This document shows, in pieces, positions 2,902 to 17,979 of a stretch of 57,279 nt of DNA. The stretch's first letter is position 1. Each line of letters opens with the position of its first letter. The notes beneath the pieces are model-generated. The model was not told the DNA's origin, ran no database searches, and worked only from the letters and a program-made list of their open reading frames with translations. Both the position numbers and the translations under genes were made by a program. This DNA comes from a virus, in the IMG/VR virus record IMGVR_UViG_3300021963_006667, positions 1 through 57,279 of that record. One strand, given 5' to 3'.

Positions 2902-4920
2902 ATGAACGTTGTTTATGTGAACTACACTGTAAGAGACAGCGTATTTGATTATGCATGGCTCTCATTTAAAACCTACGTCGAAGATCACTATAAAGGCACG
3001 GCGAATTGGCATTGGCATTATCCAATCAGCGATTCCCGTGCCGATAGTCCAGAAGAACTAGCACAGAGAATATTACGACTTGACCCAAAGGTTGTGATGT
3101 TCTCTGTTTATGTTTGGAACGTCGGACTATCAAGAGAAGTTGCTCGAATCATCAAATCGCTTAGTCCCGAAATACACCTCGTATTTGGTGGCCCATACTG
3201 TGAGTACAAAGAAGATCCTGAGTACTTCACAAAATACCCATACATAGACTTCACTTGCCAGACGGACGGATACGGAGAACCTTTCATCAACGAGTTCCTC
3301 TATCAGGTAGAGACGGATCAAGACTGGAACAAGGTACCATACATGGTTCGAAAGGAAGGATACAGTCCTGTAACTTTCAACAAGCGTCAGTTTGAATGGC
3401 CGAAGAGAATCTTTGAGCGCAACTCTGACTACCTTCAAAAGGTAAAGGACGAACGCACCGGTTCCATCACCCTCATGACGATCTATGAGACGCAGCGCGG
3501 ATGCCCATACGGATGCACGTTCTGTGAATGGAGTGGCGGTATCAACTCAAAGGTTGCGTTTAAGCCAAGCGAAGATGTGATCGAAGACTTCACATGGCTC
3601 GCTAAAAACGGTTTCCTTGAGGACCTGCACATGGTAGAAGCAAACCTTGGCCAACTCGACAGGGACGTGATGCTCGTCGAGGAGTTGTGTAAGATCAAGG
3701 CAGAGTATGGAGTACCGAGAGACGTTATCCTTGCAGGACTCAGCAAGTCAAAGAAGTCAAACGTATATAAGATCGACAGACTTCTGGCTGCATCAGGACT
3801 TTCTAACGGATTCAAAATCTCGATGCAGGACATGGATCCACAGGTACTCAAGAACATCGAACGCGTGGACGAACCTTGGGAAAAGCAGTTCAAGGCATAC
3901 AACGAACTACGTGACGAGTTCGGAATCAAGCTAAGAGCCGAGATGATTCGTGGACTTCCTGGCACCACGCTCAATAGTTTCTATGAGCAGGCCGGAGAGA
4001 TGGCAAAGCACGGAGTTTTCTGGGATAAATACACGTGGCATCTTCTGCCTACGTCTCCTGCATCAAACCCTGAATACATGCAGAAGTTTAGCATCGAGGC
4101 GATAGACCTGATGACCGACTCAATGAAGGGTTCTGCATTCAACGCAAAGATGATCGACGAAGACAAGTTCACGGAGATCGGCGGACTCATCAACGATCAG
4201 AGATTCATTCAGCCGTCAAAGATAGTCGTATCCACCATGTCGTATACAAAAGAAGACTACGCCGAGATGGTCGTTTCGGACGGGATCATATTTGCCATGG
4301 AGACCGAGGGCTATCTGTCCAGGATAACAAAGTATCTCGACTCGAACGGGGTGCCACATTCGGTATTTTACAAAAGGTTCTATGATACCTTCATAGACCA
4401 GAAGTATCTTCAGCCTATCCAATTTACTGTGCTTAAAGCAATTATACAGCAGGCGTTGGACAAAGTACATCAAAAAAGCGCGGCTCCCTTCGAATACTAC
4501 AAACTCGAAGGGTTGCCATGGAACATCTACGCAAAGATCCCAACACTTATCAACATCATGATCAACGTCAACCGGGTTGAGTTCTACACCTCGATTCTTA
4601 GGTGGATCGTCGATGAGTTTGGAAGCGATCCTAAGTTGGATGACCTGATCGGTTGGTCCATGAATTCCGTGAAGTGGATAGACTACGACCCAACGAAACC
4701 GACCTCGTTCGTAACACAGTTTGACTGGACTGCGAATGAGTTGGTTGAAGGAACCTATATCAACACACCTTCAGACACACTCTACTCGAATGAAAACATG
4801 GACATCGATTGGCACCTATTGACGATGGAAAATCGAGTGAAGCAGTATTTTATTCGGCTATGCGCATTGCATGGTAGTAACAAGATGTTTGAGCATTTGA
4901 GGGTTACCCATGCTGAATAA
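2902..4920 (+). CDS. Radical SAM protein with B12-binding-type N-terminus
   Basis: 672 residues. The N-terminal ~140 residues look like a cobalamin-binding Rossmann domain of class B radical SAM proteins: VVMFSVYVWN, then HLVFGGPYCE, a predicted-site phrase ending DGYGEPF. No DxHxxG cobalt-ligand motif is evident. The radical SAM core has the [4Fe-4S] motif RGCPYGCTFCEW (C201, C205, C208) and a later MIRGLPGTT segment typical of the B12-radical SAM family. The C-terminal ~250 residues are not recognised. Known relatives do methylations, ring contractions or rearrangements; the substrate here is unknown. ATG start after AAGGA. It opens a tightly packed island of enzyme genes placed within the fibre genes. 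The radical SAM assignment is firm, the B12 assignment probable. Confidence 0.88.
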   Translation: MNVVYVNYTVRDSVFDYAWLSFKTYVEDHYKGTANWHWHYPISDSRADSPEELAQRILRLDPKVVMFSVYVWNVGLSREVARIIKSLSPEIHLVFGGPYCEYKEDPEYFTKYPYIDFTCQTDGYGEPFINEFLYQVETDQDWNKVPYMVRKEGYSPVTFNKRQFEWPKRIFERNSDYLQKVKDERTGSITLMTIYETQRGCPYGCTFCEWSGGINSKVAFKPSEDVIEDFTWLAKNGFLEDLHMVEANLGQLDRDVMLVEELCKIKAEYGVPRDVILAGLSKSKKSNVYKIDRLLAASGLSNGFKISMQDMDPQVLKNIERVDEPWEKQFKAYNELRDEFGIKLRAEMIRGLPGTTLNSFYEQAGEMAKHGVFWDKYTWHLLPTSPASNPEYMQKFSIEAIDLMTDSMKGSAFNAKMIDEDKFTEIGGLINDQRFIQPSKIVVSTMSYTKEDYAEMVVSDGIIFAMETEGYLSRITKYLDSNGVPHSVFYKRFYDTFIDQKYLQPIQFTVLKAIIQQALDKVHQKSAAPFEYYKLEGLPWNIYAKIPTLINIMINVNRVEFYTSILRWIVDEFGSDPKLDDLIGWSMNSVKWIDYDPTKPTSFVTQFDWTANELVEGTYINTPSDTLYSNENMDIDWHLLTMENRVKQYFIRLCALHGSNKMFEHLRVTHAE

Positions 4921-5479
4921 GATTGTATTAGCGATGAATATAGAGGTCAACGAGGTCTATGATATTAGAAAGCGAACCAACGGCAGATTAAGTAACGCTT
5001 TTGTCGAGTATTGCATCGAAGACTCGTATGTCCGAGAGCGTGCACTCAAGAATCTTGTCGCAAATAAAGTCGATCGTAAGGTTGTTGAAGCGTTCAAGGT
5101 TTTAGACCTACAAACAGTATTTTCTTCCGTTCCAGATGACGAGTTAGTTGACTTTTTTGAGAAGATGTGTTATAAGATAAACGATATGATCTATATTAAG
5201 TTTGAGGCTGACACGTTTAAGGGATTCGATCTTCACGGAAAGATTGTATTGCCAGTAGTCTATTCTGGTAATCGTCCGGTTACCAAACATAAGTACATTG
5301 GATGGGTGACTCCTCATAACATCGAACACCTGTTAGAGCATGAGAAGATCACGGAAGACGTTGCAACCAAGGTGCAACTAAAATACGCAGAGATGCTACG
5401 TAAACATAAAGACGAATTCGACGTATTTTTTGACGGCTCTCCTATAGAGGAAGTTTTGGAGTATATCAACAATGATTAA
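4910..5479 (+). CDS. Unknown protein in the radical SAM island
   Basis: 189 residues, no family recognised. It is charged and soluble-looking, with no signal peptide or membrane segment. A helical N-terminal half is followed by a segment with VLPVVYSGNRPVTKHKYIGW and a helical acidic C-terminus. Its ATG overlaps the end of the preceding radical SAM gene by 11 bases, and its own end overlaps the next gene by 8, so translation is probably coupled. Position suggests an accessory or substrate-recognition protein for the upstream enzyme; this is inference only. Confidence 0.75.
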   Translation: MLNKIVLAMNIEVNEVYDIRKRTNGRLSNAFVEYCIEDSYVRERALKNLVANKVDRKVVEAFKVLDLQTVFSSVPDDELVDFFEKMCYKINDMIYIKFEADTFKGFDLHGKIVLPVVYSGNRPVTKHKYIGWVTPHNIEHLLEHEKITEDVATKVQLKYAEMLRKHKDEFDVFFDGSPIEEVLEYINND

Positions 5480-6485
5480 TTGGGCATTCACTTGGTCTTC
5501 ACGTAGAGCACCTGCGTGGGAAAACTGCAACGACGCAATGAACCTTGCCGTTGGACCTGAGTGGGTCTTTGGTGACTACTACCTACCGGTAAACACTCGG
5601 TATTCCGGCTCTCCTCTGAAGGAGTTTAAGGACGATGAGCGCATAAAACTTCTTAACGCACCGGCAGTAGATCAGTTCGAGGCGGAAACGTTCAAGTACG
5701 TCATAGAAGAGAATAGGTCTGGATACAACCTAGAGGTAGCCGATCGTGTAGGACATTTGATCCTTAAGGAACACGCGACTCCAGACATTTTACTCACCGA
5801 ACAAAATAGTCGTGTCATAGACCTGGACGAGGTTTACAAATACCTTCAGGAATATGATTGGGTCGCACTCGGAATCAAATTCAACAACATCGAGATCAGC
5901 GACAAGACGATCATGGCGAAGTCGTTCTTCTATGCCCGCGATAAGGATCTGAAGTTGGTAAACCTGTCAGGTCAGAATCAACCTTACAACGACGTCTCAT
6001 CGATCCCTGCTATAACGTATTGTGTGTTTAAGAAGACGAAGAACGTGGGTCTGGTCAACTGCATTGTAAACCCACACCTTGTTTCCGTTCCGCATATGGA
6101 TTCTAGGGTGTATGGAGATAAGCATCACGTGTTCGCACTCGACGCGTTTGACTCGACGATCGAGGACTACTTTCTTAAACCTACCATCGTTGGAAGCGAC
6201 ACTAACATCATCAACAACAACGTGATATTCACGAACGTGCAGTTCCAAATGTTGGAATATGAGGCGTCATTTTACCACATCCGTAATAAGTCGTACATAC
6301 CCTTTCCGAGAACGATTAAAACAAATTTAGGTGTAACTACGATCGGAAACGTGATAAGTATAAACCCAACTCGCCATTACGGGTACATATCCATAGAATA
6401 CGACGTTGACTCTATGATAAATAGCTATGGAGTTGCCTCTCAGGTAGGCAAACACAAAATTGAATACACCGTAATTAGAGGATAA
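5472..6485 (+). CDS. Unknown protein in the radical SAM island
   Basis: 337 residues with no recognised domain. It starts MINWAFTWSSRRAPAWENC and is rich in aromatic and Asn residues, with alternating hydrophobic beta-like stretches and no CxxxCxxC, Walker or methyltransferase motif. There is no membrane segment or signal peptide. It overlaps the preceding gene by 8 bases and ends 5 bases before the 64-residue His/Cys protein gene. It could be a structural component, a carrier or a partner enzyme; sequence alone does not decide. Confidence 0.75.
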   Translation: MINWAFTWSSRRAPAWENCNDAMNLAVGPEWVFGDYYLPVNTRYSGSPLKEFKDDERIKLLNAPAVDQFEAETFKYVIEENRSGYNLEVADRVGHLILKEHATPDILLTEQNSRVIDLDEVYKYLQEYDWVALGIKFNNIEISDKTIMAKSFFYARDKDLKLVNLSGQNQPYNDVSSIPAITYCVFKKTKNVGLVNCIVNPHLVSVPHMDSRVYGDKHHVFALDAFDSTIEDYFLKPTIVGSDTNIINNNVIFTNVQFQMLEYEASFYHIRNKSYIPFPRTIKTNLGVTTIGNVISINPTRHYGYISIEYDVDSMINSYGVASQVGKHKIEYTVIRG

Positions 6486-6490
6486 CTATC

Positions 6491-6685
6491 ATGGTTGCCG
6501 ACGTAACAAGCACCTTTACAGCGAATAATACGGTCACCCCGACGAAGGCAGTAGGTTCAACCATCGATGCCGCTTCCTTTAGAACGATGGTGAACACGCT
6601 CGACGCGCTGATTCAACACAGTCATACGTTCACCGATGACTACACCTCAAACTGCCAGTGCAACTGTCAGCGAGGCAGCATCTAA
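6491..6685 (+). CDS. Small HxHT/Cys protein, candidate modified substrate
   Basis: 64 residues, ATG preceded by GAGG at good spacing. The Thr/Ala/Val-rich N-terminal part leads into a short helical-looking segment (FRTMVNTLDALIQ), then HSHTFTDDY with H43 and H45, and a C-terminal tail with three alternating cysteines, C55-Q-C57-N-C59, ending QRGSI. The same helix-HxHT-x-D module occurs twice in the 123-residue protein at 11359. The stop codon directly abuts the GTG start of a radical SAM/SPASM gene. Small size, a terminal CxCxC tail and the adjacent maturase-like gene resemble RiPP precursors. Against this, HxH motifs also occur in phage fibre tips, where in T4 gp37 they bind iron. It may be both a virion peptide and a modification target. 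Function unproven. Confidence 0.72.
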   Translation: MVADVTSTFTANNTVTPTKAVGSTIDAASFRTMVNTLDALIQHSHTFTDDYTSNCQCNCQRGSI

Positions 6686-8335
6686 GTGACCGACAATTAT
6701 GTGAACGTGAAAAGAGTTCTAAGCGAAGCTCAAAAGAAACGCTTAGAAAACCATACACCGTCTGTTGTCGAACAGGATGGTAAATTAGTCACAACCTTTG
6801 AGACGATAAACATCTCAGGTAAGGGACAAAAGACAAACAAACTCATCACGGTCCTTCCCGCAGCGCAGGAACAGGCTGTACCGTTTGCGGATGCAGAGTT
6901 TTTGTATCGTGACCTGATACAGGTTAACGCGATGTTAACGAACGCGTGTAACCTCAGTTGCTCCTACTGCTACGAACAACACAACAAAGACTTCGGTAGA
7001 TTTACAAAAGAATCCCTTAAGCAAGTCTATGATTGGATGAACTCCCGTAACAACGGTAAGAAGAAGGTGTTCCAATTTTTTGGAGGTGAACCTCTCATCC
7101 ACAAGCCTTTGATCAAAGAGTTTATCGAGACTTATGACGAAGAGTTGTCGGGCAACTACAAAGATTATCGTGGCACCTACATTTCGATGTGTACAAATGG
7201 ACTTCTATTAAATGACGAGTTCATCGAGTTCTATTTCGGTAAGCCATACACGCACATGATGTTGAGTCTCGATACGCTGAATTCAGCAATCGATCACAGA
7301 GAGATCACGCCGGCTCAGTTAAACAAGGTTCTCAAGAGTATAGACAAGATCGTGGAAGTTCTTGGAGATGACGCGAATCGACTCGTGATTCGTGCCACCC
7401 TGTCACAAGAGACCTCGCGTGACATGAAGAACTTCATCGAGACGCTGTATGAGCATGGTGTTAGAAACATGGTTGTTCATCCACTTGTACTCGACTCAAA
7501 GCATGGTTACATCTCATGGAAAGATGAGAACTGGCAGAACATGAGAAGTTCTATCTTCGGTGCCCTTGAGAAGTATGATGACCTTTACATCAGATTCTCT
7601 GAAGGCGTTGGCCTGAAGGAAGATAGTAACTGTATGGTCGGTTCACACATGGTTGCCATCGACGCATCCGGTGACTTCTCGGGTTGCTACTTCTTCACCA
7701 ACCAGAAGTCTAACGGTGCAGACATTGCCGTTCTCGGAAACGTATTCCAGGACCGAGTATACATAGATCGGTACAAGAAGTTCCAAAGCGCCTATCAGGA
7801 GATGTTCGATACCGAGGAGCAGTGCAGAACCTGTGACTATCAGGATGCCTGTTATCAGTGTCCTGCCGGTAACATGGATACCGGATCGAGAATCTTCCGG
7901 CCTGACGATATGTGTCAAAAGATCGTAAAGCTCTACGTCGACTTTCAACACGACGTCGCAAAGAAACTATTCATGCGTCACGTGAAGAAGAGATTCGACC
8001 GAGTTGAAAAGCACGGTGAAAAGGTATTTGCCGCCGAGTTGCAATACTTTTATGATAAATTTAATGGAGAAGGTGTCGATGATTTTGAACATTATTTGCG
8101 GATTGATTTGCCTCATTATTCTGATGTCATTCGTGCCTGGTCCGTGGACGGCAAAACCGAAGCCACCGATCTACATTCGCTCTACAACATCCTCGCAAAA
8201 AGATTCGACAAGCCAAGAATCGATATTGAAATCACATCTGACTTCGTAAAGTGTTATTACATCCAATGCATATCGACGATCATCTTCGACAAGAACAGAA
8301 TGAACGAAGTCAAACTTACGACTTTGCTGGAATAA
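6686..8335 (+). CDS. Radical SAM/SPASM-type enzyme
   Basis: 549 residues. The GTG start lies immediately after the preceding stop codon. The radical SAM motif is ACNLSCSYCYEQ (C88, C92, C95), followed by FFGGEPLIH, the SAM-binding GGEP motif, and MCTNGLLL. The C-terminal part carries a SPASM-like cysteine set: SNCMVG, then DFSGCYFF, then CRTCDYQDACYQCPAGN and a last DDMCQK. SPASM proteins bind auxiliary [4Fe-4S] clusters and commonly modify peptides or proteins (thioether, C-C or epimerisation reactions, or formylglycine formation). The ~150 residues after the SPASM region are extra and unrecognised. The abutting small His/Cys protein is the obvious candidate substrate, by inference. Confidence 0.9.
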   Translation: MTDNYVNVKRVLSEAQKKRLENHTPSVVEQDGKLVTTFETINISGKGQKTNKLITVLPAAQEQAVPFADAEFLYRDLIQVNAMLTNACNLSCSYCYEQHNKDFGRFTKESLKQVYDWMNSRNNGKKKVFQFFGGEPLIHKPLIKEFIETYDEELSGNYKDYRGTYISMCTNGLLLNDEFIEFYFGKPYTHMMLSLDTLNSAIDHREITPAQLNKVLKSIDKIVEVLGDDANRLVIRATLSQETSRDMKNFIETLYEHGVRNMVVHPLVLDSKHGYISWKDENWQNMRSSIFGALEKYDDLYIRFSEGVGLKEDSNCMVGSHMVAIDASGDFSGCYFFTNQKSNGADIAVLGNVFQDRVYIDRYKKFQSAYQEMFDTEEQCRTCDYQDACYQCPAGNMDTGSRIFRPDDMCQKIVKLYVDFQHDVAKKLFMRHVKKRFDRVEKHGEKVFAAELQYFYDKFNGEGVDDFEHYLRIDLPHYSDVIRAWSVDGKTEATDLHSLYNILAKRFDKPRIDIEITSDFVKCYYIQCISTIIFDKNRMNEVKLTTLLE

Positions 8336-9369
8336 GATCTGTTACGATCTATCTTGGCGATACCTGTAACTTTGATTGCGTCTATTGCGACCGTGCATAT
8401 ATTAAGCACGACATTGGTTCACAGAATCTAAACAAGGCAGACTTCGACGACATCATAGAGTTTATGAAGGTCGTAAAGGAACAGGCGAAAGACCTAAAGG
8501 CAATCTCGTTCCATGGCGGTGAACCGTTCTTGTATGTAAAAAGAATGGACGAACTACTTGACGCGCTTGATCCGATCTTCGGAAAAGACATGGAGTACTA
8601 CATCACATCGAACGGTTCGAAGATCGTCGAGAACGAATGGTTCTTTCAGAAGTGGCCAAAGATCCATATCACCCTGAGCTACGACTTTAATTATCAGCTT
8701 GTCAATAGGGAATATGTAGACCTAAAAGCAATCTCGGAAGTGATCTATCGTAACGACTGCTACATGATGTTTCAGTTCGTGATTCCACCAGATGGGTTCC
8801 ATGAGGATACTTTAGCCGAGGTGATCAGATCGTGTAAACTTGCTCGTTGTGATACGATTAACATCATTCCGCTTCGACACCATCGTGGTGCAAGAAAGTT
8901 CAAAGTCCTTATTGACGATTTTAACATGAAGTGGTATAGTGTTTATTTGATGCGGTTCATCCATACTTTGTATGTCCAGGGAATCACGCTCAACATAGAT
9001 GGCAACTATCACGGAATCGACAAGCAATATCTCAACAATCACAGCAAGATGATCCTGAGTCCGGATGGATACGTGTATCCAGAGTTTGACTACCTTGAAT
9101 ATAAGCGAAAGGAATTCAGGATCGGCAAGTGGAAGGGTGGAATCGAACTCGACCGAGTCAAGGACGAGAACCAATTCATTCTTCCAGGTTGCGTGACCTG
9201 CCACATGAGGGACGCGTGCGGGTTGAAGTACCTATACAAGATGTTTGATGAAGAACCGAAAGGAAACTGCGTCGACTTCTACACAACGATCAACCTGATG
9301 GTGAAACACCTTCACGCCTTGAAACAGAAGCCCACGTTGATGCATTGGATTGGAATCGGAGATGGATGA
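8266..9369 (+). CDS. Radical SAM enzyme with short twitch/SPASM-like C-terminus
   Basis: About 367 residues from the ATG at 8266; a GTG at 8251 would add five. Neither has a clear ribosome binding site, and both lie inside the preceding gene, giving an overlap of about 70-85 bases. The core motif is DTCNFDCVYCDRA (C34, C38, C41 from the ATG), followed by ISFHGGEPFLY and YITSNGSK. The C-terminus has GCVTCHMRDACGLKY and a later GNC, a shortened auxiliary-cluster region like the twitch domain. The substrate is unknown. The long overlap implies translational coupling with the SPASM enzyme upstream, suggesting the two act in one pathway. Confidence 0.88.
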   Translation: MHIDDHLRQEQNERSQTYDFAGIRSVTIYLGDTCNFDCVYCDRAYIKHDIGSQNLNKADFDDIIEFMKVVKEQAKDLKAISFHGGEPFLYVKRMDELLDALDPIFGKDMEYYITSNGSKIVENEWFFQKWPKIHITLSYDFNYQLVNREYVDLKAISEVIYRNDCYMMFQFVIPPDGFHEDTLAEVIRSCKLARCDTINIIPLRHHRGARKFKVLIDDFNMKWYSVYLMRFIHTLYVQGITLNIDGNYHGIDKQYLNNHSKMILSPDGYVYPEFDYLEYKRKEFRIGKWKGGIELDRVKDENQFILPGCVTCHMRDACGLKYLYKMFDEEPKGNCVDFYTTINLMVKHLHALKQKPTLMHWIGIGDG

Positions 9370-9871
9370 TCTGTACAAAGCTGCGTGCAGGGTGAAGACC
9401 ATCATGCCGATGAAGTATTACGACTGGAAGCAGTGGCACGAATGGCCGTATCGAACGATCGGTGACCATATCGTCCATGACGAAACCATCATCGATGTCG
9501 GTGCCGGCTGTGGGTTCTTGAGCATGCACCTTCTTATGACCGGTAAGTGTGACAAGGTTATTGCGTACGATACCCGCGAGAACATGTGCGAGTTTATGTC
9601 GTTGCTAAGTAATACGTTGGGTCTGGCCACACGCCTTGAAGTAAGGTGCGAACCGTTTCAAAGTAACCGACACGACAACTTGACCGTCTCGACCAGACTC
9701 GGGTTTTCAAACCTGCTACTCAATAACAAGGCTCAGACTATAACTATGGCTCGTACGAGAGAGTGCGAACCTATCATGAGATACGTCGAAACTCCAGATG
9801 ATTGGAACGAGAAGGTCGTTACGAGAGATGATGGATTTACTATGAGGTTGTTATGGAACTATCGAGAATAA
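9362..9871 (+). CDS. SAM-dependent methyltransferase-like protein
   Basis: 169 residues from the ATG at 9362; a TTG at 9350 would add four. It has a Rossmann-type motif I (IIDVGAGCGFLS), followed by a probable motif II ending in an acidic residue (KVIAYDTRENM). It is short for a class I methyltransferase, and the usual motif IV (D/N-P-P-Y-like) is not evident, so it may be a minimal, degenerate or non-catalytic member. It overlaps the upstream radical SAM gene by 8 bases and the next gene by 19. Context suggests methylation or SAM/SAH-related help to the radical SAM enzymes; that is inference. Confidence 0.65.
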   Translation: MDDLYKAACRVKTIMPMKYYDWKQWHEWPYRTIGDHIVHDETIIDVGAGCGFLSMHLLMTGKCDKVIAYDTRENMCEFMSLLSNTLGLATRLEVRCEPFQSNRHDNLTVSTRLGFSNLLLNNKAQTITMARTRECEPIMRYVETPDDWNEKVVTRDDGFTMRLLWNYRE

Positions 9872-10224
9872 TTCTACTCTATAACGATGAATTCGAGATC
9901 CCACTCGAAACCGTTTACGGAGTGGTGTACATGGTTCCAGGATTAACGAAGCAGTTTCCCTGGTGGATTCGTCGGTTCTGTATTGAAGGCTATGACTATA
10001 ATAGTCCAGACTTTGAAGTCGTAGGAACAGGAGTTTCATCCGTAGTCGGGACACCATTAACGGAGAAGGCACACGAGTATCGTAAATCGATCTTCGGCCA
10101 ACGATGGATCGAAGATCTTAACTATGAGATCGTCTCAACCTTTCCTCCGCTTAGAGGGGTTAGCGTTCAGGGAGACGACTACACTCTTGATTCGGATTTA
10201 ATGAGGATACTACAGAATGTCTGA
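9853..10224 (+). CDS. Unknown small protein in the radical SAM island
   Basis: 123 residues, ATG preceded by GAGG. Aromatic-rich, with FPWWIRRFC and an acidic C-terminus; no family recognised and no membrane segment. It overlaps both neighbours (19 bases upstream, 8 downstream), so it belongs to the same translationally coupled run. In size and position it could be a peptide-recognition or partner protein, but no RRE-like (PqqD-like) pattern could be identified by eye. Confidence 0.7.
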   Translation: MELSRIILLYNDEFEIPLETVYGVVYMVPGLTKQFPWWIRRFCIEGYDYNSPDFEVVGTGVSSVVGTPLTEKAHEYRKSIFGQRWIEDLNYEIVSTFPPLRGVSVQGDDYTLDSDLMRILQNV

Positions 10225-11353
10225 TGAGGGCGAAGAGTTCCGTAAGTTTAAAGACCACAATACGTACTTTGTGACAGAAGACGCGTTGATGCCACTGCAT
10301 CATGATATAACGTTTAGCCCGACTCGTAAATACTATTGTGGCGCAAATTGTCAAGTTTGTTACATCAAGAAGAAACTAAAGGCACATCTACCGTATTACG
10401 CCGAAGCCATACCCGAAAAGATCACGGTCGAAGACGAAAAGAGATGGTTCGAGATTTTTGAATACTTCTACGTGATTCGAGTAGTCGATGACCTGAAGTT
10501 TTTGAAGGAACACTATCCTCACATCTATGGATGGTACAAAGAACACGCCTCGATCTTTGAGTACGGTATGACTGACAACGCGATCGTTCAGCAGCATGAA
10601 ACTCTCATGGAGTTGGACATGAAGAGTTTGTCCGAGGTCGCTCTGAGCGAAGAGTTCATGAACAAGGTAAACTCGAAGAAGAACTACAACAGGGTGATGG
10701 AGATCCTTCAGAGTTACATCGACAAATACGACCTACACAAGATCAAGGTAATCAAGACTACAAACGAAGAGTTACCTTATCATGCGAGGGAGTTGGTCGA
10801 GTGGATCAACAATAAAGGAATCGTTACGTCTCTGCATAATGACTATCGTAAAACCAATGTAGATGACAACGAACTTGGTAACATTGACCATGACTTAGCC
10901 GGACTCTTCGACTATCAGAATAGTCACGTCCTATGTTACAACGACCGAACATATCAGGTCTATCGTGGATCGTTGCACTTATACGGAGATCGATTCTTCT
11001 ATAGTATCGATGATGCCACCGATATTAACTGGGAACCGTTTCATACTATGAATGGCGACTTTGACCATCAGAAGTTTATGGTCGATATGATCCAAGGCAA
11101 GTTCGATCTGTACTCAAAGTTTGCCGATGAGTTGAAAAATGCTGGAGGTGGTACCGCCGAAAAATTTCGAAGCTACTATATAAATACTACTGACAGCTTT
11201 ATGGTGAACGGCGACTTCAACTTCATACCCAAGATCATGTTAAGTGAAAACTCGAAATACTACAACAAACTGGTAGAGCTTGGGTATCGTCCAACTGAGG
11301 TTGGGTTGTACCTACCTGGAAGCTCACCCAAACCAATCATCGGATTTAGGTAA
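10217..11353 (+). CDS. Minimal or degenerate radical SAM-like protein
   Basis: 378 residues. An exact CxxxCxxC motif, YYCGANCQVCYIKKKL (C41, C45, C48), lies near the N-terminus as in radical SAM enzymes, including the aromatic residue often found after the third Cys. The normal GGEP and xNG motifs are not visible, and the ~300 residues after the motif do not look like a standard TIM-barrel series. It may be a highly diverged radical SAM enzyme or a partner protein with one Fe-S cluster. A GGGTAEKF stretch occurs near residue 312. It overlaps its upstream neighbour by 8 bases and ends 5 bases before the second HxHT protein gene. Confidence 0.6.
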   Translation: MSDEGEEFRKFKDHNTYFVTEDALMPLHHDITFSPTRKYYCGANCQVCYIKKKLKAHLPYYAEAIPEKITVEDEKRWFEIFEYFYVIRVVDDLKFLKEHYPHIYGWYKEHASIFEYGMTDNAIVQQHETLMELDMKSLSEVALSEEFMNKVNSKKNYNRVMEILQSYIDKYDLHKIKVIKTTNEELPYHARELVEWINNKGIVTSLHNDYRKTNVDDNELGNIDHDLAGLFDYQNSHVLCYNDRTYQVYRGSLHLYGDRFFYSIDDATDINWEPFHTMNGDFDHQKFMVDMIQGKFDLYSKFADELKNAGGGTAEKFRSYYINTTDSFMVNGDFNFIPKIMLSENSKYYNKLVELGYRPTEVGLYLPGSSPKPIIGFR

Positions 11354-11358
11354 AGACA

Positions 11359-11730
11359 ATGGCATCATATTCAAATACGACATCGGTTGCTGTCGCGACA
11401 TCGCTAAGAACAACATATACAACACCGTTGTTGGCGCAAATTGCAAGTGGTAATACCGTGCAAGCGGCGCATATGACCATGCTTAAAAACTTTGCAAATG
11501 CGATCTTGGTTCATACGCATACGTTAACGGATTACTCACAAATTAAAGAATTTGGTAATACTAATGCTAGTGCGTTTACGGTTGATACTGTTCCCCAAGT
11601 ACCAAGCGCTAACGTCGGTGCAACATACACTGCTGGAAACGTAATCGGCGCGAACGAATACACCGAAATTAGAGTAGCTGTTGAAGCTCTAAGAGTACAC
11701 AGCCATACATGGGATGATGCAATAGTATGA
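11359..11730 (+). CDS. HxHT-repeat small protein, second candidate substrate
   Basis: 123 residues, with two copies of the module seen in the 64-residue protein at 6491: a short helix-like stretch followed by HxHT and Asp. Copy one is FANAILVHTHTLTDY (H52, H54); copy two is VEALRVHSHTWDDAIV (H114, H116) at the extreme C-terminus. It has no cysteines, unlike the 64-residue protein. The Thr/Ala/Ser/Val-rich composition resembles the neighbouring fibre proteins. Its stop overlaps the ATG of a radical SAM/SPASM gene by 4 bases, repeating the small-protein/maturase order seen at 6491-8335. It is either a virion or fibre component with metal-binding histidines, a modification substrate, or both. 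Confidence 0.7.
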   Translation: MASYSNTTSVAVATSLRTTYTTPLLAQIASGNTVQAAHMTMLKNFANAILVHTHTLTDYSQIKEFGNTNASAFTVDTVPQVPSANVGATYTAGNVIGANEYTEIRVAVEALRVHSHTWDDAIV

Positions 11731-13001
11731 TGCAACTACCTTGTTATGAACTCAGTGATGGTAGTTCGTTTTATTATGACTCTCACTCAAATACTATTTA
11801 CAACACAGAAGGCGAGCAATTAAGTTTGCCGCCTTCAAAAGCTATTGAATACTACGAATTAGAAGCAGCAAACCATGGGGTGGATTATAAGGTCAACAAC
11901 CCGTTTGCGATTCGTATCCTTCTCGGACATGCGTGTAACTACAACTGCACCTATTGCATGCAGAAAGATATTGGTAATCCGTTAGAGAGACCACAATCGA
12001 TTTATACCGAATCGTTTATTGCTAACATCAAGAAGAATCTAAACCTTGATAGGTTGAACAGAATTGAACTTTGGGGTGGAGAACCTTTCCTATATTGGAA
12101 AGACATGGTCGAGATCATGAAGTTCTTTGATTCTCCCAATAGAGAGTTCTTCATATCAACAAATGGTTCGGCATTTGTACAAAAACACGTTGACTTTTTC
12201 CAAACGTTGAAATCTACAATCTTAATCAGCTGTAGTCATGACGCTGTAGGCCAAAAAGAACTTCGTGGTGACGACATCCTTGAGAACCCAAAGAAGGTCG
12301 ACATCATTAAGAAGATGTTGGCTCTTCCGAATGTACAACTAGGGTTCTCGTCGGTGGTTAGCAATCAGAACCACGACCTATATGCAATCAACGACTACTT
12401 CAAGGAATTCTGTGACCGTGAAGGAATCGAGAACATGAAGATCACCTTCATCCCGGCAAAAAACTATGACGTTCATGACACAGAGATGGCTTCGTCGAAC
12501 TACATTCTGCGTGGTGAAAAGTTGAAAGCGTTCGCTCAACACCTATACGACTTCACACAAGATTCGTTCAACGATCGTACAAGATTCCTACGCAACAACA
12601 TCCTGTACTCGCCCGAGGGTGTGGTGGACTACGCTAAATTCCTGAGACAACAGACTCCGATCACGACCAAGTCTGGCTGTGGTGCAGACTCAAACGACGT
12701 TTTATCGGTTGACATTCAAGGAAACGTTCGCTTATGCCCGCACACCGATAGTAGCTTCATTGCTGGTAAGCTGGAAGATGTAGGTTCGGTAAAGATCAAA
12801 GGCATGGATCTTGCTCGTAAGAAGACTCACTGCATGAAGTGTCCGGTGAAACGACTCTGCAGATCGTCATGCCCTATCAAGTTTCCAGACCACGTGTTCT
12901 ACTCTAACTGCGCACTCGAGAAGGTCTGGTGGGGAAACATCCAACTTCACGCATTTAAATTATTATTCGGACAAACCGTGTCCATGAAAGAGGCAGCATG
13001 A
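11727..13001 (+). CDS. Radical SAM/SPASM-type enzyme
   Basis: 424 residues; ATGATG start overlapping the preceding stop. The radical SAM motif is HACNYNCTYCMQKD (C70, C74, C77), followed by ELWGGEPFLYW and FISTNGSA. The C-terminus shows a good SPASM pattern: SGCGADS, VRLCPHT, then CMKCPVKRLCRSSCPI and a final SNC, enough cysteines for two auxiliary clusters. Family members mature peptides and proteins. The immediate upstream neighbour is the HxHT-repeat protein, and the downstream gene (4-base overlap) is a DUF3050 protein, suggesting that the three work together. Confidence 0.92.
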   Translation: MMQLPCYELSDGSSFYYDSHSNTIYNTEGEQLSLPPSKAIEYYELEAANHGVDYKVNNPFAIRILLGHACNYNCTYCMQKDIGNPLERPQSIYTESFIANIKKNLNLDRLNRIELWGGEPFLYWKDMVEIMKFFDSPNREFFISTNGSAFVQKHVDFFQTLKSTILISCSHDAVGQKELRGDDILENPKKVDIIKKMLALPNVQLGFSSVVSNQNHDLYAINDYFKEFCDREGIENMKITFIPAKNYDVHDTEMASSNYILRGEKLKAFAQHLYDFTQDSFNDRTRFLRNNILYSPEGVVDYAKFLRQQTPITTKSGCGADSNDVLSVDIQGNVRLCPHTDSSFIAGKLEDVGSVKIKGMDLARKKTHCMKCPVKRLCRSSCPIKFPDHVFYSNCALEKVWWGNIQLHAFKLLFGQTVSMKEAA

Positions 13002-13744
13002 AACTTAACAAATCACTCATCGAAGAGCATACGTCGATGCTACGCAACCACTCGTTGCTCGTGACCAACAACATCCAAAGCAAAGACGACCTTCGAATCT
13101 TTATGGAACATCACGTGTTCGCCGTCTGGGACTTCATGTCTTTGTTGAAGACTTTGCAAAACGAAGTCGTTCCAAGCAAGACCCCGTGGATGCCCACCCG
13201 TGGGACACGTTCCGACATTGCAAGGATGATTAACGAGATCGTGACCGGTGAAGAGTCTGACATCGCACCAGGCGGAGGATCGATCAGTCACTTCGACCTA
13301 TATCTTCAGGCGATGCTTGAGGTGAATGCAGACACAAGTTCTATTACATCATTTTTGAAGAACCTAGAATGGTCTGGCACCATTCCATACCAACTTGCAC
13401 CAAAACCGGCAGAGAAGTTTATGCGAAACACGTTTGGTACCATTAATCGTGGACCGCACTGTGTTGCTGCTTCGTTTGCATATGGCAGAGAAACCATCAT
13501 TCCTGATATGTTCACTCGACTATTAACCCAACTCAATATCAGTCAACTTGATGCGCCAAAGTTTCATTATTACCTGCAGAGACACATTGAGGTCGACGGT
13601 GATGAACACGGTCCAATGTCTGAGCATCTCGTTGAATATTTCTGTGACGACGATCCTATTAAGGTTCACGAAGCCGAACAATCAGCGATTGCAGCCATCA
13701 AAGCACGTATTGACTTCTTCAACGACATAGAAAAGCTCCTGTAG
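12998..13744 (+). CDS. DUF3050-family protein, heme-oxygenase-like fold
   Basis: 248 residues. The sequence FMEHHVFAVWDFMSLLKTLQ, followed by PWMPTRG, MINEIVTGEESD, GGGSISHFDLYLQAM, and later FAYGRETIIPDMFTRLL and RHIEVDGDEHGP, matches my recollection of DUF3050. I expect this family to have a heme-oxygenase-like helical fold; some proteins with that fold are diiron oxidases. Conserved His and Glu residues suited to metal binding are present (H38/H39, GEE, SHF, EHG). The activity is unproven. It overlaps the radical SAM/SPASM gene by 4 bases and is the last gene of the island, ending 8 bases before a late promoter. Confidence 0.75.
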   Translation: MKLNKSLIEEHTSMLRNHSLLVTNNIQSKDDLRIFMEHHVFAVWDFMSLLKTLQNEVVPSKTPWMPTRGTRSDIARMINEIVTGEESDIAPGGGSISHFDLYLQAMLEVNADTSSITSFLKNLEWSGTIPYQLAPKPAEKFMRNTFGTINRGPHCVAASFAYGRETIIPDMFTRLLTQLNISQLDAPKFHYYLQRHIEVDGDEHGPMSEHLVEYFCDDDPIKVHEAEQSAIAAIKARIDFFNDIEKLL

Positions 13745-13752
13745 ACGATTCT

Positions 13753-13760
13753 TATAAATA
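13753..13760 (+). promoter_or_regulatory. T4-type late promoter TATAAATA
   Basis: A perfect TATAAATA lies 26 bases before the ATG at 13786, with AAGGAGAT ribosome binding sequence between. In T4 this element is recognised by the gp55 late sigma factor, and a gp55 homologue is encoded in this window. It starts the second fibre/structural run. Confidence 0.9.
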
Positions 13761-13785: not shown

Positions 13786-14118
13786 ATGGCTATTAAAGCG
13801 AATTTAGTTATCGATCAGGGCACTTCTTTTAGTGCTACAGTTGACGTAACAGATACTGGTGGTGCGGCTTATAACCTTACCGGATACACTACCGCTGCTC
13901 AAATGCGTAAGAATTATAACTCTTCAAGCGCCGTAACTTTCTCAACTTCACACAACGGTGCATATGGTCAAATCACGTTATCGCTCAACGCCGCTAATAC
14001 AGCGGTTCTTGAGCCTGGACGTTACCTATACGACGTTGAGATTACGTCTGGAAGTGCTATCGTTACTCGAGTCGTCGAAGGAATCGTAACTGTTACACCT
14101 GGAATGACGAGAATCTAA
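13786..14118 (+). CDS. Small virion protein, BppU N-domain-like
   Basis: 110 residues, all-beta in appearance: an opening strand region (VIDQGTSFSATVDVTD), YNLTGYTTAAQMRKNY and a C-terminal VEGIVTVTPGMTR. This pattern resembles the Ig-like N-terminal domain of phage baseplate upper proteins and small structural proteins I recall from marine T4-like phages. It is first in a late transcription unit of fibre genes with a strong AAGGAGAT site. It probably serves as a baseplate or fibre attachment protein; moderate confidence. Confidence 0.7.
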   Translation: MAIKANLVIDQGTSFSATVDVTDTGGAAYNLTGYTTAAQMRKNYNSSSAVTFSTSHNGAYGQITLSLNAANTAVLEPGRYLYDVEITSGSAIVTRVVEGIVTVTPGMTRI

Positions 14119-14119
14119 C

Positions 14120-14365
14120 ATGACTATAAAGGCCACAGTCACTCAAAATGGGAAAACAACTGCTAAGGTAACACCTCAGCAGAACATACTCGTAACTAAC
14201 TATCAGGTAAGTTCGAGTAATATCACCCTAAATGATCTAGTTGACGTTGAAGTAGGCAATCTTCAAGATGGCGCGCTATTATCATATAATCAAAATACTC
14301 AATCTTGGAAAGCTATTACCTCTATAGAGAATCCAAACACAGAAGTTAATGGAGGCTTCTTCTAA
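14120..14365 (+). CDS. Small fibre-associated protein
   Basis: 81 residues. The central LNDLVDVEVGNLQDGALLSY, followed by a Trp-containing turn (SWKA) and a GGFF C-terminus, resembles phage fibre connector segments of the kind DLVDVxxxxLxDGxLLxYN. It starts one base after the preceding stop, and its stop overlaps the next ATG (TAATG). It is likely a short fibre or hinge component; no enzymatic motif is seen. Confidence 0.68.
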   Translation: MTIKATVTQNGKTTAKVTPQQNILVTNYQVSSSNITLNDLVDVEVGNLQDGALLSYNQNTQSWKAITSIENPNTEVNGGFF

Positions 14366-17300
14366 TGTCACTCATTCGTATTAAAAGATCAGGCACTTCT
14401 GGATCGCCTTCAGCACTTGCACAAGGTGAAATGGGATATTCGTTCTTTGCTGGAACCCAATCAAACGGCGGCGACCGTCTTTATATTGGTACCGGCACTG
14501 AAACAGGTGGTGTAGCTGCAAACATTGAAACCATTGGAGGTAAGTATTTTACCGCTAAGTTGAATCATGTTCCGGGCGTATTAACTGCAAATGCGGCAAT
14601 CATCGTCGATGCAAGCTCTAAGATCGACACACTCAACATCTCTAACATCACGATTACCGGCAACACGATCAGTACGACCGCTACAAACGCGACCCTGATT
14701 CTGGCACCAAACGGTACCGGTGTTATCGACGTTTCTGGTAAGCGTGTTATCAACAGCGCTGCTCCTGTCGCAAATACCGACCTCGTAACTCTTGGACACT
14801 TGAATAACACCTATACCGGCGTTCTTAACATTGCTGGTGATGCTGGAACCGACGCAATCTCTCTAACTTCAGAGACGTTGTTGGTAACCGGTGGCGTGGG
14901 TCTTTCATCCGCAGTTACGGCCAACACGATTACGGTAAACCTTGACAATACCACAGTAACCGCTGGATCTTATGGTGCCGCTGGTTCCGTTGGTACATTC
15001 ACTGTTGATGCTCAGGGTCGACTTACCGCTGCTGGCGCAACTACAATCTCGATCACTTCGGCTCAGGTCAACGACGCGACTGCTCTTGCAACCGCTTCAA
15101 GAATCGTCCTTCGTGACGCTTCAGGAAACTTTGCAGCTAACACGATCACAGCCGCTCTGGCCGGTAATGCTACCACAGCGACCACATTGGCCACGACCCG
15201 TACTCTCTGGGGTCAAAACTTTAACGGCGGTGCAAACGTAACAGGTTCGCTCACATCAGTCGGCGACATTACTGGTACCGCTGGTGTAACACTTACCGCA
15301 ACTGCAGGAACCCTTGCTCTTGCAGCCACAAGTACAAACGTAATCACACTATCGACAAACGCGACTGAAACCCTTCGCATCTCTGCGAACAACAACGTTG
15401 GTATTGGTAACACCACACCAGCCGATAAACTAAGTGTCACTGGTACGTCAAACTTCACTGGTAACATGGCACTCGGTGCAAACGTTGCTATTACCGGAAC
15501 GGTTACTTCGGGAACTTGGCAGGGTTCTATCGTTCAACCTACTTATGGTGGAACTGGTAAGTCAACTCTTCCAGCCGCATTTGCTGCACTAAGTGGGTTT
15601 ACAACGACAGCAACAGCAGCTGGTACAACGGTATTATCAAACACTTCAACCTCTTACCAGATATTTACCGGTGCGACTACTCAAACCATTACGCTTCCTA
15701 ATACGAGCACTCTGGCTACCGGTTGGTTCTTTGAGATTCAAAATAACTCGACTGGCTCGCTTACTATCAACTCGTCTACGGCGGTTAACATCGTTCCTGC
15801 AACTGTGGCCATTGCTGGCACAAGCGTTAGAGTCACATGTATCTCTATCGCGGATAACACAGCAGCCGCGTGGGACGTTGAGGTTGTAGGATTCAGTTCG
15901 TTCACCGGTACTGGTGCGTTTGCACGATCTTTAAGCCCAACTATCACAACTCCTTCCATCACGTACTCCACGTCAGCTGCGATTACCGCTGGTACTAACG
16001 CTCAGGGTCAAGGTGCTCTTACCTCTGACTACAACGTTGTAACGACAACTACCGCTAACCCATCTGGCGTGACGCTTCCAACCGGCGCAACCGGGCGTGT
16101 TGTTACTGTCGTGAACAGGGGAACCAACCCCATCACGATCTATCCAGCAACCGGTGGAGTGATTGATGCTCTTACAACAAACGCTGCAATTACACTTCCT
16201 GTAGGAAGAGAACTTACTTTCAAAGCGTCATCCGCTACTCAATGGTATTCTACGTATAATCTATCAACCGGTCTTGCAGATACGGCAACGATCCTTGCTA
16301 CGACTCGTACGCTATGGGGTCAGAACTTCAACGGTTCTGCTAACGTCACAGGCGACCTAACCTCCGTGGGTAACATAACTGGAACTGGTGCCGTTATCAT
16401 GACGGCAACTGGTGCAAACCCAATAACTTTTGTCACAAATAGCGTTGAAACTCTCAGAGTATCGGCCAACAACAACGTAGGTATTGGCAACACCGCTCCT
16501 GCAGATAAACTAAGCGTCAACGGTACAGCGTACTTTGGTGCTCCAGTTAGAATGGCAGCAAACGTTCAGATCGATGGTACCCTTACAGTCGGCGGAAGTA
16601 CAACTGTTATTAACGCGACGAACCTCTCTGTATCTGATAACATGATTTATCTGAACAACGGTTCAACGGCTACGATCACTGGAGCAGTTTCAAACGGTAC
16701 GACGTTCGTTTATACCGCGCAGAATAACTATAACACAAGCATGGTTGTGACGGTAACTGGAGTTAACCCATCAGGGTTTAACGTTACCGGTGCAACCGTA
16801 ACAGCTGCGAACTCAACAAGCTTCACGATTGCGAACACTTCTTCTCCGGGTGCATACGTAAGCGGTGGTAGTGCAACGGCTAAAACTTCTGCGTATCCAG
16901 ACCTCGGTATTGCTGGTGCATATAACGACGGTACGTATGCTCACGCTGGTATCTTCAGAGATGCTACCGACGGACGTTGGAAGTTCTATCATGGCTACAC
17001 GCCGGAACCAGACGCATCGGTATTCATCGACACCGCAAACAACTCGTTTACACTTTCGGACGTTCAAGCTTCTACGTTTATCGGGGCACTTACCGGAAAC
17101 GCTACAACCGCAAGCTCTGTTAACAACTCAGTAACGTTCAACAACGGTGGATCCGGTGCTGCATCTGGTACCACATTTAATGGTTCCGCAGCTCAGACAA
17201 TCTCGTATAACACGGTTGGTGCGTCTCCACTTGCTGGTTCTACGTCACTTACCACCCTTGGTACAATTGCGACCGGTACATGGAACGGTTCTATTATTGG

Positions 17301-17979
17301 CGGACAGTGGGGTGGTACAGGAGTCAACAACGCCGGTAAGACGATCACGCTTGGAGGAAACGTCTCTACGGGTGGCGATCTTACCACGGCCAATACCTTC
17401 ACGACCTCTGGCAACTTTGCCCTAACGTTGACTCAGACAGCGGCTACAAACGTTACGTTGCCTACAACCGGAACTCTCGCTACGCTTGCGGGAACTGAAA
17501 CGTTTACGAACAAGACCCTGACCCTACCAACGATTGGTGGTACAGGTGCTACGTTCAACGGTTCGACCTCTGGTACAACCGTTCTGAAAGCCTCTGCTGC
17601 TGCAGGTACTACAACAATCACAATGCCAGCCACGACTGGTACTATGGTCACGACCGGTGATACTGGAACCGTTACTTCGACCATGATCGCAAACGACACG
17701 ATCGTTAACGCAGACATCAACTCTGCGGCGGCGATTGCTATCACAAAGCTTGCGGCTTCCACAATCTCTGGTATCTCCCTCGGTAACAACCTTGGTACGC
17801 TTACCTTCGGAACGGGCCTTACTGCAGGTGGTGCAAGCTATAACGGATCGACAGGGGTTACGATAACCGCAGTGACCGCAAACAATACAACTCTGGGTAT
17901 TGCAAGCTTCGACGCGACCAACTTCACGGTAGCGACCGGGGCAGTAAGCATAAATACGATAGATGGTGGTACATACTAA
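14365..17979 (+). CDS. Large tail-fibre protein
   Basis: 1204 residues. The N-terminus LIRIKRSGTSGSPSALAQGE followed by MGYSFF and a GGDRLYIGTG segment resembles the attachment domain at the start of many phage fibre proteins. The rest is low-complexity Thr/Ala/Gly/Asn beta repeats with fibre phrases such as NNVGIGNTTPADKLSVTG, TLTNKTL-type segments and FNGSA blocks. One insert (about residues 750-900) includes an apparently folded domain with YHGYTPEPDASVFIDT. No collar or chaperone domain is recognised at the C-terminus. It is translationally coupled to the gene before it. Probable receptor-contacting fibre or its proximal half. Confidence 0.85.
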   Translation: MSLIRIKRSGTSGSPSALAQGEMGYSFFAGTQSNGGDRLYIGTGTETGGVAANIETIGGKYFTAKLNHVPGVLTANAAIIVDASSKIDTLNISNITITGNTISTTATNATLILAPNGTGVIDVSGKRVINSAAPVANTDLVTLGHLNNTYTGVLNIAGDAGTDAISLTSETLLVTGGVGLSSAVTANTITVNLDNTTVTAGSYGAAGSVGTFTVDAQGRLTAAGATTISITSAQVNDATALATASRIVLRDASGNFAANTITAALAGNATTATTLATTRTLWGQNFNGGANVTGSLTSVGDITGTAGVTLTATAGTLALAATSTNVITLSTNATETLRISANNNVGIGNTTPADKLSVTGTSNFTGNMALGANVAITGTVTSGTWQGSIVQPTYGGTGKSTLPAAFAALSGFTTTATAAGTTVLSNTSTSYQIFTGATTQTITLPNTSTLATGWFFEIQNNSTGSLTINSSTAVNIVPATVAIAGTSVRVTCISIADNTAAAWDVEVVGFSSFTGTGAFARSLSPTITTPSITYSTSAAITAGTNAQGQGALTSDYNVVTTTTANPSGVTLPTGATGRVVTVVNRGTNPITIYPATGGVIDALTTNAAITLPVGRELTFKASSATQWYSTYNLSTGLADTATILATTRTLWGQNFNGSANVTGDLTSVGNITGTGAVIMTATGANPITFVTNSVETLRVSANNNVGIGNTAPADKLSVNGTAYFGAPVRMAANVQIDGTLTVGGSTTVINATNLSVSDNMIYLNNGSTATITGAVSNGTTFVYTAQNNYNTSMVVTVTGVNPSGFNVTGATVTAANSTSFTIANTSSPGAYVSGGSATAKTSAYPDLGIAGAYNDGTYAHAGIFRDATDGRWKFYHGYTPEPDASVFIDTANNSFTLSDVQASTFIGALTGNATTASSVNNSVTFNNGGSGAASGTTFNGSAAQTISYNTVGASPLAGSTSLTTLGTIATGTWNGSIIGGQWGGTGVNNAGKTITLGGNVSTGGDLTTANTFTTSGNFALTLTQTAATNVTLPTTGTLATLAGTETFTNKTLTLPTIGGTGATFNGSTSGTTVLKASAAAGTTTITMPATTGTMVTTGDTGTVTSTMIANDTIVNADINSAAAIAITKLAASTISGISLGNNLGTLTFGTGLTAGGASYNGSTGVTITAVTANNTTLGIASFDATNFTVATGAVSINTIDGGTY
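15184..16530 (+). repeat. Dispersed duplicate block inside the fibre gene
   Basis: Two copies of a block run from ATTRTLWGQNFNG through LTSVG-I-TGT to NNVGIGNTxPADKLSV. The first spans about 15184-15450 and the second about 16291-16530, separated by unrelated fibre sequence. Protein similarity is high while DNA shows many synonymous differences. Confidence 0.8.

Follow-up and report, generated by a model that had tools for sequence, protein, structure and literature searches.

A conserved radical SAM gene cassette in the tail-fibre region of tailed phages, with a small cysteine-tailed protein as candidate substrate

The present study analyzes an island of 12 genes, named A to L, with several radical S-adenosylmethionine (rSAM) enzymes, lying among tail-fibre genes in a 57,279-base IMG/VR virus record (IMGVR_UViG_3300021963_006667; the whole record is hereafter the window). 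By its portal protein the window is nearest to the Sinorhizobium phages of the phiM12 group (63% identity). A preliminary description, made from the DNA letters, had proposed a dedicated modification system, perhaps for virion proteins. The idea of such a system in the tail-fibre region is supported by the data below; its likely target is not the fibres generally, rather the Cys tail of a 64-amino-acid (aa) protein, D (6491–6685), and both this C-x-C tail and the broad conservation of the cassette had been overlooked. On balance we think it probable that the island is a cassette like those for ribosomally synthesized and post-translationally modified peptides (RiPPs), of ranthipeptide type, whose product is a modified Cys tail on a phage protein associated with the tail.

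D, encoded like all 12 island genes on the + strand, ends in HSHTFTDDYTSNCQCNCQRGSI, with the predicted core NCQCNCQRGSI at 6650–6682, and its stop codon lies immediately 5′ of the start codon of E, a putative maturase gene. Relatives were gathered by alignment of E homologues, giving 56 IMG/VR loci with strong matches (L002, L020–L074) and three genome-assembly loci; filtering out loci whose E exceeded 95% identity left a non-redundant set of 34 phages including the window. A small protein of D type with a Cys-rich, variable end beside the maturase was found in 51 of the 56 loci in a hidden Markov model (HMM) survey and in 31 of the 34 non-redundant phages; among the other three, one contig starts at E and cannot be judged (L027), and no D was found in L054 and L066. 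The first D alignment showed the Cys, N and RG of the core to be invariant, and all 31 D proteins of the non-redundant set have HxH, D[DN][YF], an unbroken C-x-C run and RG among their six final residues. The run holds three Cys in four of these proteins, four in three, five in 22 and six in two, and its 115 spacer residues are N, Q, A, E and D only. Between the window and a contig from an Alteromonadales metagenome-assembled genome (MAG; L124), the last 19 codons of D differ by 14 synonymous and three non-synonymous changes, which suggests that the core is under purifying selection. D had no meaningful family match in Pfam, PHROG or NCBIfam, and neither D nor J of the window matched any INPHARED phage even at loose E-values. 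Because a C-terminal, repeat-variable Cys tail adjoins a maturase, D has the anatomy of a RiPP precursor, and its Cys tail is the likely target of modification.

The enzymes beside D belong to the rSAM superfamily in five cases (A, E, F, I and K). The preliminary description had recognized four of these, at 2902, 6686, 8266 (a later ATG of the open reading frame at 8251–9369) and 11727, and had proposed a profile search for Radical_SAM, SPASM and B12-binding domains; all three domains were found, with Pfam Radical_SAM matches in A, E, F and K. E (6686–8335) matches Pfam Radical_SAM at 1.2e-18 together with SPASM, and its best NCBIfam match is the PapB ranthipeptide maturase (NF047865; 5.6e-33, 114.6 bits), below the curated cut-off of 340 bits, so that E is PapB-like and not a PapB. 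The E family profile has as its best match in the PDB the thermocellin maturase CteB (5wgg, 4.3e-23), and three rSAM Cys plus seven SPASM-spaced Cys are present in 34 of 34 sequences. Auxiliary Cys of SPASM or twitch type likewise occur in F (8251–9369; Pfam Radical_SAM 3.1e-10), where three rSAM Cys and four C-terminal, twitch-like Cys are invariant in 32 of 32 sequences, and in K (11727–13001; Pfam Radical_SAM 7.3e-12 and a SPASM-domain match), where all 33 sequences keep the three rSAM Cys and 32 of the 33 also keep six SPASM Cys. Additional E-like rSAM copies were seen in two relatives (L053:8420-9694 and L210:1456-2616), the latter adjoining an SbcD-like nuclease on the 253-kb scaffold of Ewingella E4, and the Ewingella E homologue itself (L126:9620-11710) is lengthened considerably at its N-terminus by a segment that includes a stretch rich in Cys and Gly (CGSCGSS...GGGCGTS).

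The fifth protein, I (10217–11353), had been noted for a bare CxxxCxxC and had no Pfam match. This motif is invariant in 21 aligned homologues, with the three rSAM Cys kept in 31 of 32 sequences of a larger set, and the family alignment contains no auxiliary-cluster Cys. An AlphaFold2 model of I (predicted local distance difference test, pLDDT, 89.6) gave as best structural matches MoaA (Z 11.1), SuiB (10.7), DesII (10.4) and ChlB (10.4), followed by SkfB (9.9), EpeE (9.3) and CteB (8.9), many of all matches being peptide maturases; plain Foldseek gave a weaker result, with DesII at E 2.3e-3 and probability 0.97. The predicted fold makes it most likely that I is a true rSAM enzyme, which would bring the number in the island to five. 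No match to I was found among INPHARED phages.

Other island genes would supply tailoring chemistry. A (2902–4920) combines Pfam B12-binding (4.7e-9) and Radical_SAM (3.1e-8) domains and matches the KedN5 C-methyltransferase family of NCBIfam (NF033712) at 2.7e-38 and 131.6 bits, below the curated cut-off of 700 bits, and TokK (5.1e-40) and CysS (1.5e-31) in the PDB. L (12998–13744) is a DUF3050 protein, as had been described (PF11251; 5e-81, 272 bits against a cut-off of 22.2), haem-oxygenase-like and a putative di-iron oxidase, which matches a solved DUF3050 protein (9vwb, 1.6e-51) and, weakly, CT610. The methyltransferase-like protein of the preliminary description, G (9350–9871), does show that resemblance, to Methyltransf_18 at 3.1e-5, a score below the Pfam cut-off. 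Taken together, the enzymes resemble maturases of peptides and natural products, E and A falling short of membership in the named subfamilies that they matched best. A rubrerythrin-like protein is among the optional cassette genes of L033. Between J and C, two relatives have a ketoacyl synthase (L040:5221-7240, L032:5898-7121), accompanied in L040 by a fatty-acid desaturase, which hints at lipid chemistry; two others have between F and I a 160-aa protein (L033:12794-13276, L035:12794-13282) with an HxD-like motif (YKWHQD), which may be an oxygenase and whose L033 copy falls in no Pfam family.

Is this set of genes a unit? The preliminary description had held that it would be refuted if the genes did not co-occur in related phages, and co-occur they do. 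In the HMM survey, C was found, like D, in 51 of the 56 loci, I in 47, DUF3050 in 29, A in 12 and B in six, with G and H (both 0 of 56) confined to the window. The core thus consists of J, D, C, E, F, I and K, with the B12-rSAM gene A, DUF3050 and the methyltransferase optional. The commonest gene orders in the non-redundant phages are J-D-C-E-F-I-K and J-C-D-E-F-I-K-L, and J lies between I and K in the clade of the window. Two further baits gave the same picture. A DNA motif for DDYxxNCxCNC found six stretches in IMG/VR, all with E, of which two are known close-relative contigs and the other four have an E homologue downstream of D, the motif-bearing protein being 66–68 aa long. I as bait found 34 loci, five of them on contigs outside the E set, all with K beside I; these five start within 2 kb of I on its upstream side, which leaves all or nearly all of the E gene's place beyond the contig end. 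Pairwise distances among the seven core proteins are correlated (r 0.60–0.87, with 0 of 500 permutations as high), which shows joint inheritance.

The cassette was also found on three genome-assembly contigs. The Alteromonadales MAG contig has every gene from A to F and from I to N, L125 is a contig from a Bdellovibrio MAG, and L126 is a scaffold of Ewingella americana E4, 253 kb long, on which genes for a baseplate wedge protein and for an SbcD-like nuclease give it the look of a jumbo phage. Of 14 records tested, five gave a match to a T4-type portal, and none was detected in two records that are 190 and 280 kb long; therefore the cassette probably spans more than one phage lineage. Among 80 relatives on genome contigs only L124–L126 clearly have the cassette, the rest reaching up to 37% identity, mostly in the rSAM core, and a wider motif scan returned mostly unrelated stretches, with a cassette-family match among new loci only in L090 (M-type) and L104 (K-type). 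E found in INPHARED distant rSAM genes of about 22–28% identity, all in unannotated faecal contigs except for Thermus phage phiLo. Several of the faecal contigs, from human-gut phages (MT835472, MT836133, MT836984 and others), encode an rSAM protein about 24% identical to E and are possible further RiPP-like systems.

The link to the tail was found both in gene neighbourhood and in protein architecture. In ten loci (L030, L040, L052, L057, L060, L064, L067, L069, L073 and L126) the flanks of the cassette match PHROG families for tail fibre, tail, baseplate or virion structure. In Achromobacter phage JWF (KP202971; L244:9685-13206), a fibre protein annotated as T4 gp36-like has NCNCDCNCNCSC directly before a Hint domain, and a tail-fibre Cys run one C-x unit shorter likewise precedes Hint in phage 2-1 (OQ974181; L245:6811-10317). 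Two genes past this fibre, both phages encode an rSAM-SPASM protein, the JWF copy matching the K profile at 2e-55. Hint domains generally cleave before their own first Cys. Such cleavage would leave the Cys run at the C-terminus of the JWF and 2-1 fibres, as in D. The two phages, both cultured, offer the most direct link of the C-x-C run to tail fibres. JWF appears to be a minimal version of the system open to direct testing.

Two further core proteins are candidate partners of D. J (11359–11730) is, with D, one of the two small HxHT proteins noticed at the outset, and its C-terminal half is homologous to residues 16–51 of D (hhalign E 8e-8). It has two HxH...D motifs, of which H52, H54, D58, H114, H116 and D120 are invariant in 12 sequences, and a J profile had no match in the PDB. 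Variants of J in relatives have an additional domain, Gly-rich in L073 and of Hint type in L057; the L057 variant is a 452-aa homologue (L057:7488-8846) with the Hint-like autoprocessing domain toward its C-terminus. C (5472–6485) adjoins D in most loci and evolves fast, its homologues being 12–20% identical to the window copy. Its AlphaFold2 model (pLDDT 77.5) suggests a C-terminal Ig-like domain with a weak match to phage lambda gpV (Z 7.2); no confident fold was obtained, Ig-like matches at Z 7.2 or less lying in the noise band.

The mechanism that we propose is as follows. The HxH domain that D has in common with J would be leader and anchor, docking with the maturases, and the C-x-C run would be the core, whose Cys residues E most likely cross-links by thioether bonds. 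F, I and K may carry out further rSAM steps or act as partner proteins, on D or on J, and A, G, L and other optional enzymes could decorate the product by C- or S-methylation and di-iron oxidation. Finished D would then join J, and perhaps the Ig-like C, in the periphery of the fibre or baseplate; there its Cys tail, rigid and redox-stable, could help in contacting the host. We hold to a RiPP-like cassette because of the anatomy of D, the likeness of E to PapB and CteB, the conserved cluster Cys and the predicted rSAM fold of I; because of the co-occurrence found with three baits, the correlated distances and the fibre or virion flanks in divergent phages; and because of the HxH homology of D and J, the domain variants of J, the JWF and 2-1 fibres and the varying set of optional tailoring genes. 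The fuller proposal, that several tailed-phage lineages use four to five cooperating rSAM enzymes to bear a multi-thioether cross-linked C-terminal tail on a fibre or baseplate protein, in effect a RiPP within the virion, is put forward tentatively, and we would stake somewhat less than even odds on it.

Several points weigh against the RiPP-like cassette. No maturase-family match reaches the NCBIfam curated cut-off of its family, and some E-type loci are without D (L054/L055, L066). The D profile does not detect the JWF fibre, so that the evidence for this link comes from the Cys motif and from the K-type enzyme, and the distance correlations partly come from shared vertical descent and phage ancestry. 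The core is without the acceptor spacing of the ranthipeptides known to us, we know of no characterised rSAM precedent for an alternating CxC core, and the C-x-C runs could be simply metal-binding. An alternative explanation built on this last point is a metal- or Fe-S-binding virion tip, in which the CxC tail and HxH of D hold a cluster that the rSAM enzymes build or insert, with no cross-linking. HxH and CxC are typical ligands and both HxH...D motifs of J are invariant, but this would not account for the resemblance of E to peptide thioether maturases; in addition, characterised SPASM enzymes act mainly on peptides, and a varying repeat number is easier to reconcile with a modified core than with a cluster site that is fixed. 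Possible but similarly unlikely is that the fibre genes are mere neighbours and that D acts as a free RiPP effector made during infection, such as a toxin, a peptide for superinfection exclusion or a bacteriocin set free when the cell lyses. In favour of this, the precursor–maturase architecture equals that of bacterial RiPPs, and lysis would free the product without a transporter. Against this stand the fibre-gene neighbours across lineages, the CxC run that is part of a fibre protein in JWF and 2-1, and a leader that is the HxH domain common to D and J; moreover, Pfam found no transporter or leader peptidase among the island genes or the extra cassette genes scanned, in place of which host enzymes may serve.

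The genes could instead be auxiliary metabolic ones whose enzymes target the surface, tRNA or small metabolites of the host, D being an unrelated small virion protein. Phage genomes do carry single rSAM genes of QueE-like type and some cassettes include fatty-acid genes; even so, we regard this as improbable given that D, C, J and the enzymes co-occur in largely kept order across strongly diverged phages and that the best matches are peptide maturases. Least probable of all, and close to negligible in our estimate, is a chance pile-up of cargo genes in a hypervariable fibre region. The passages of PMC7029224 that concern the pelagimyophage host-recognition cluster present it as hypervariable and as acquiring gene cassettes, which would favour such a pile-up, but the core gene set is the same in most of the 34 non-redundant phages, the D core appears to be under purifying selection, and the co-conservation already contradicts chance. 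Sulfatase maturation was considered and rejected on finding no sulfatase among the island genes, as was host tRNA or queuosine modification, for which QueE-like matches were weaker.

The island genes lie at the positions first described. They mostly overlap or abut, as had been stated, with spacing of −85 to +5 bases, and include B (4910–5479), to which no function is assigned and which occurs with A only in close relatives, and H (9853–10224), a 123-aa protein with no Pfam match. Fibre genes on both sides were also borne out, by PHROG matches: upstream a tail-fibre-like gene with a 957-aa open reading frame (20–2893, + strand; tail-fibre and minor-tail families phrog_356 at 4.3e-29 and phrog_1833 at 2.1e-22), and downstream the tail-fibre-assembly-like M (13786–14118, + strand; phrog_3304, 2.6e-26). 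Beyond M, the fibre region continues with a large protein of repetitive sequence (1204 aa, 14365–17979, + strand; phrog_15769, of unknown function, 1.2e-28), and both it and the upstream fibre match, in relatives, repeats that resemble each other. There are 11 copies of TATAAATA on the + strand and none on the − strand, against 1.2 expected; in and near the island it is found at 11179, inside a gene, and at 13753–13760 (+ strand), right behind the island, and at no site between island genes, in line with the earlier account. The strand bias fits a clear signature of T4-type late promoters, and it is plausible that the island is co-expressed late together with the fibres. Scans for sigma-70 promoters and terminators gave chance-level results.

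How does this cassette compare with what is known? Peptide cross-links made by rSAM enzymes are known from bacterial RiPPs, and we know of none on a virus particle. The maturation is of a familiar type, and its phage tail setting is, to our knowledge, new. If the proposal is true, phages harden or functionalise a tail part by rSAM chemistry, which would be a new post-translational maturation in virion assembly; nature would then have supplied as many as five rSAM enzymes that work together, a defined candidate substrate for them, and some 30 diverged variants. The one earlier notice that was found is in PMC7029224, where radical SAM gene cassettes in the pelagimyophage host recognition cluster are mentioned without explanation. 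The cassettes of pelagimyophages MAGV3 and MAGV16, likened to that of the window by description only, share the setting of radical SAM genes in a T4-like tail-fibre island, and the passages on them in that paper are a passing mention without precursor, mechanism or wider conservation. The literature searched on phage-encoded RiPPs held nothing relevant and no description of a phage-encoded precursor, CxC tail or function, PMC11118758 dealing with host-encoded RiPPs. JWF and 2-1 have a comparable tail-fibre run, NCNCDC(NC)NCS, near a K-type rSAM-SPASM gene, which the JWF deposit labels an anaerobic sulfatase-maturating enzyme, but they differ in having one rSAM only and a Cys run inside the fibre before Hint, with no separate D. 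The His-Xaa-Ser system (HxsA-D) also uses multiple rSAM maturases, and HxsB and HxsC are among the weak matches, yet the phage repeats are Cys-x, not His-x-Ser, and scores are far below cut-offs. KedN5, TokK and CysS, B12-dependent rSAM C-methyltransferases, share with A the B12-binding and rSAM domains; they act on natural-product intermediates, whereas A is an optional member of a phage cassette and far below the KedN5 cut-off. The nearest likeness is to the ranthipeptide and sactipeptide systems of PapB with freyrasin and CteB with thermocellin, in which a small protein with a Cys-rich C-terminal core likewise stands beside an rSAM-SPASM maturase. In contrast to these, the cassette analyzed here has no transporter or peptidase seen, an HxH leader and an alternating CxC core with an RG end, and it is phage-encoded, set among fibre genes, and equipped with four or five rSAM enzymes where those systems have a single one.

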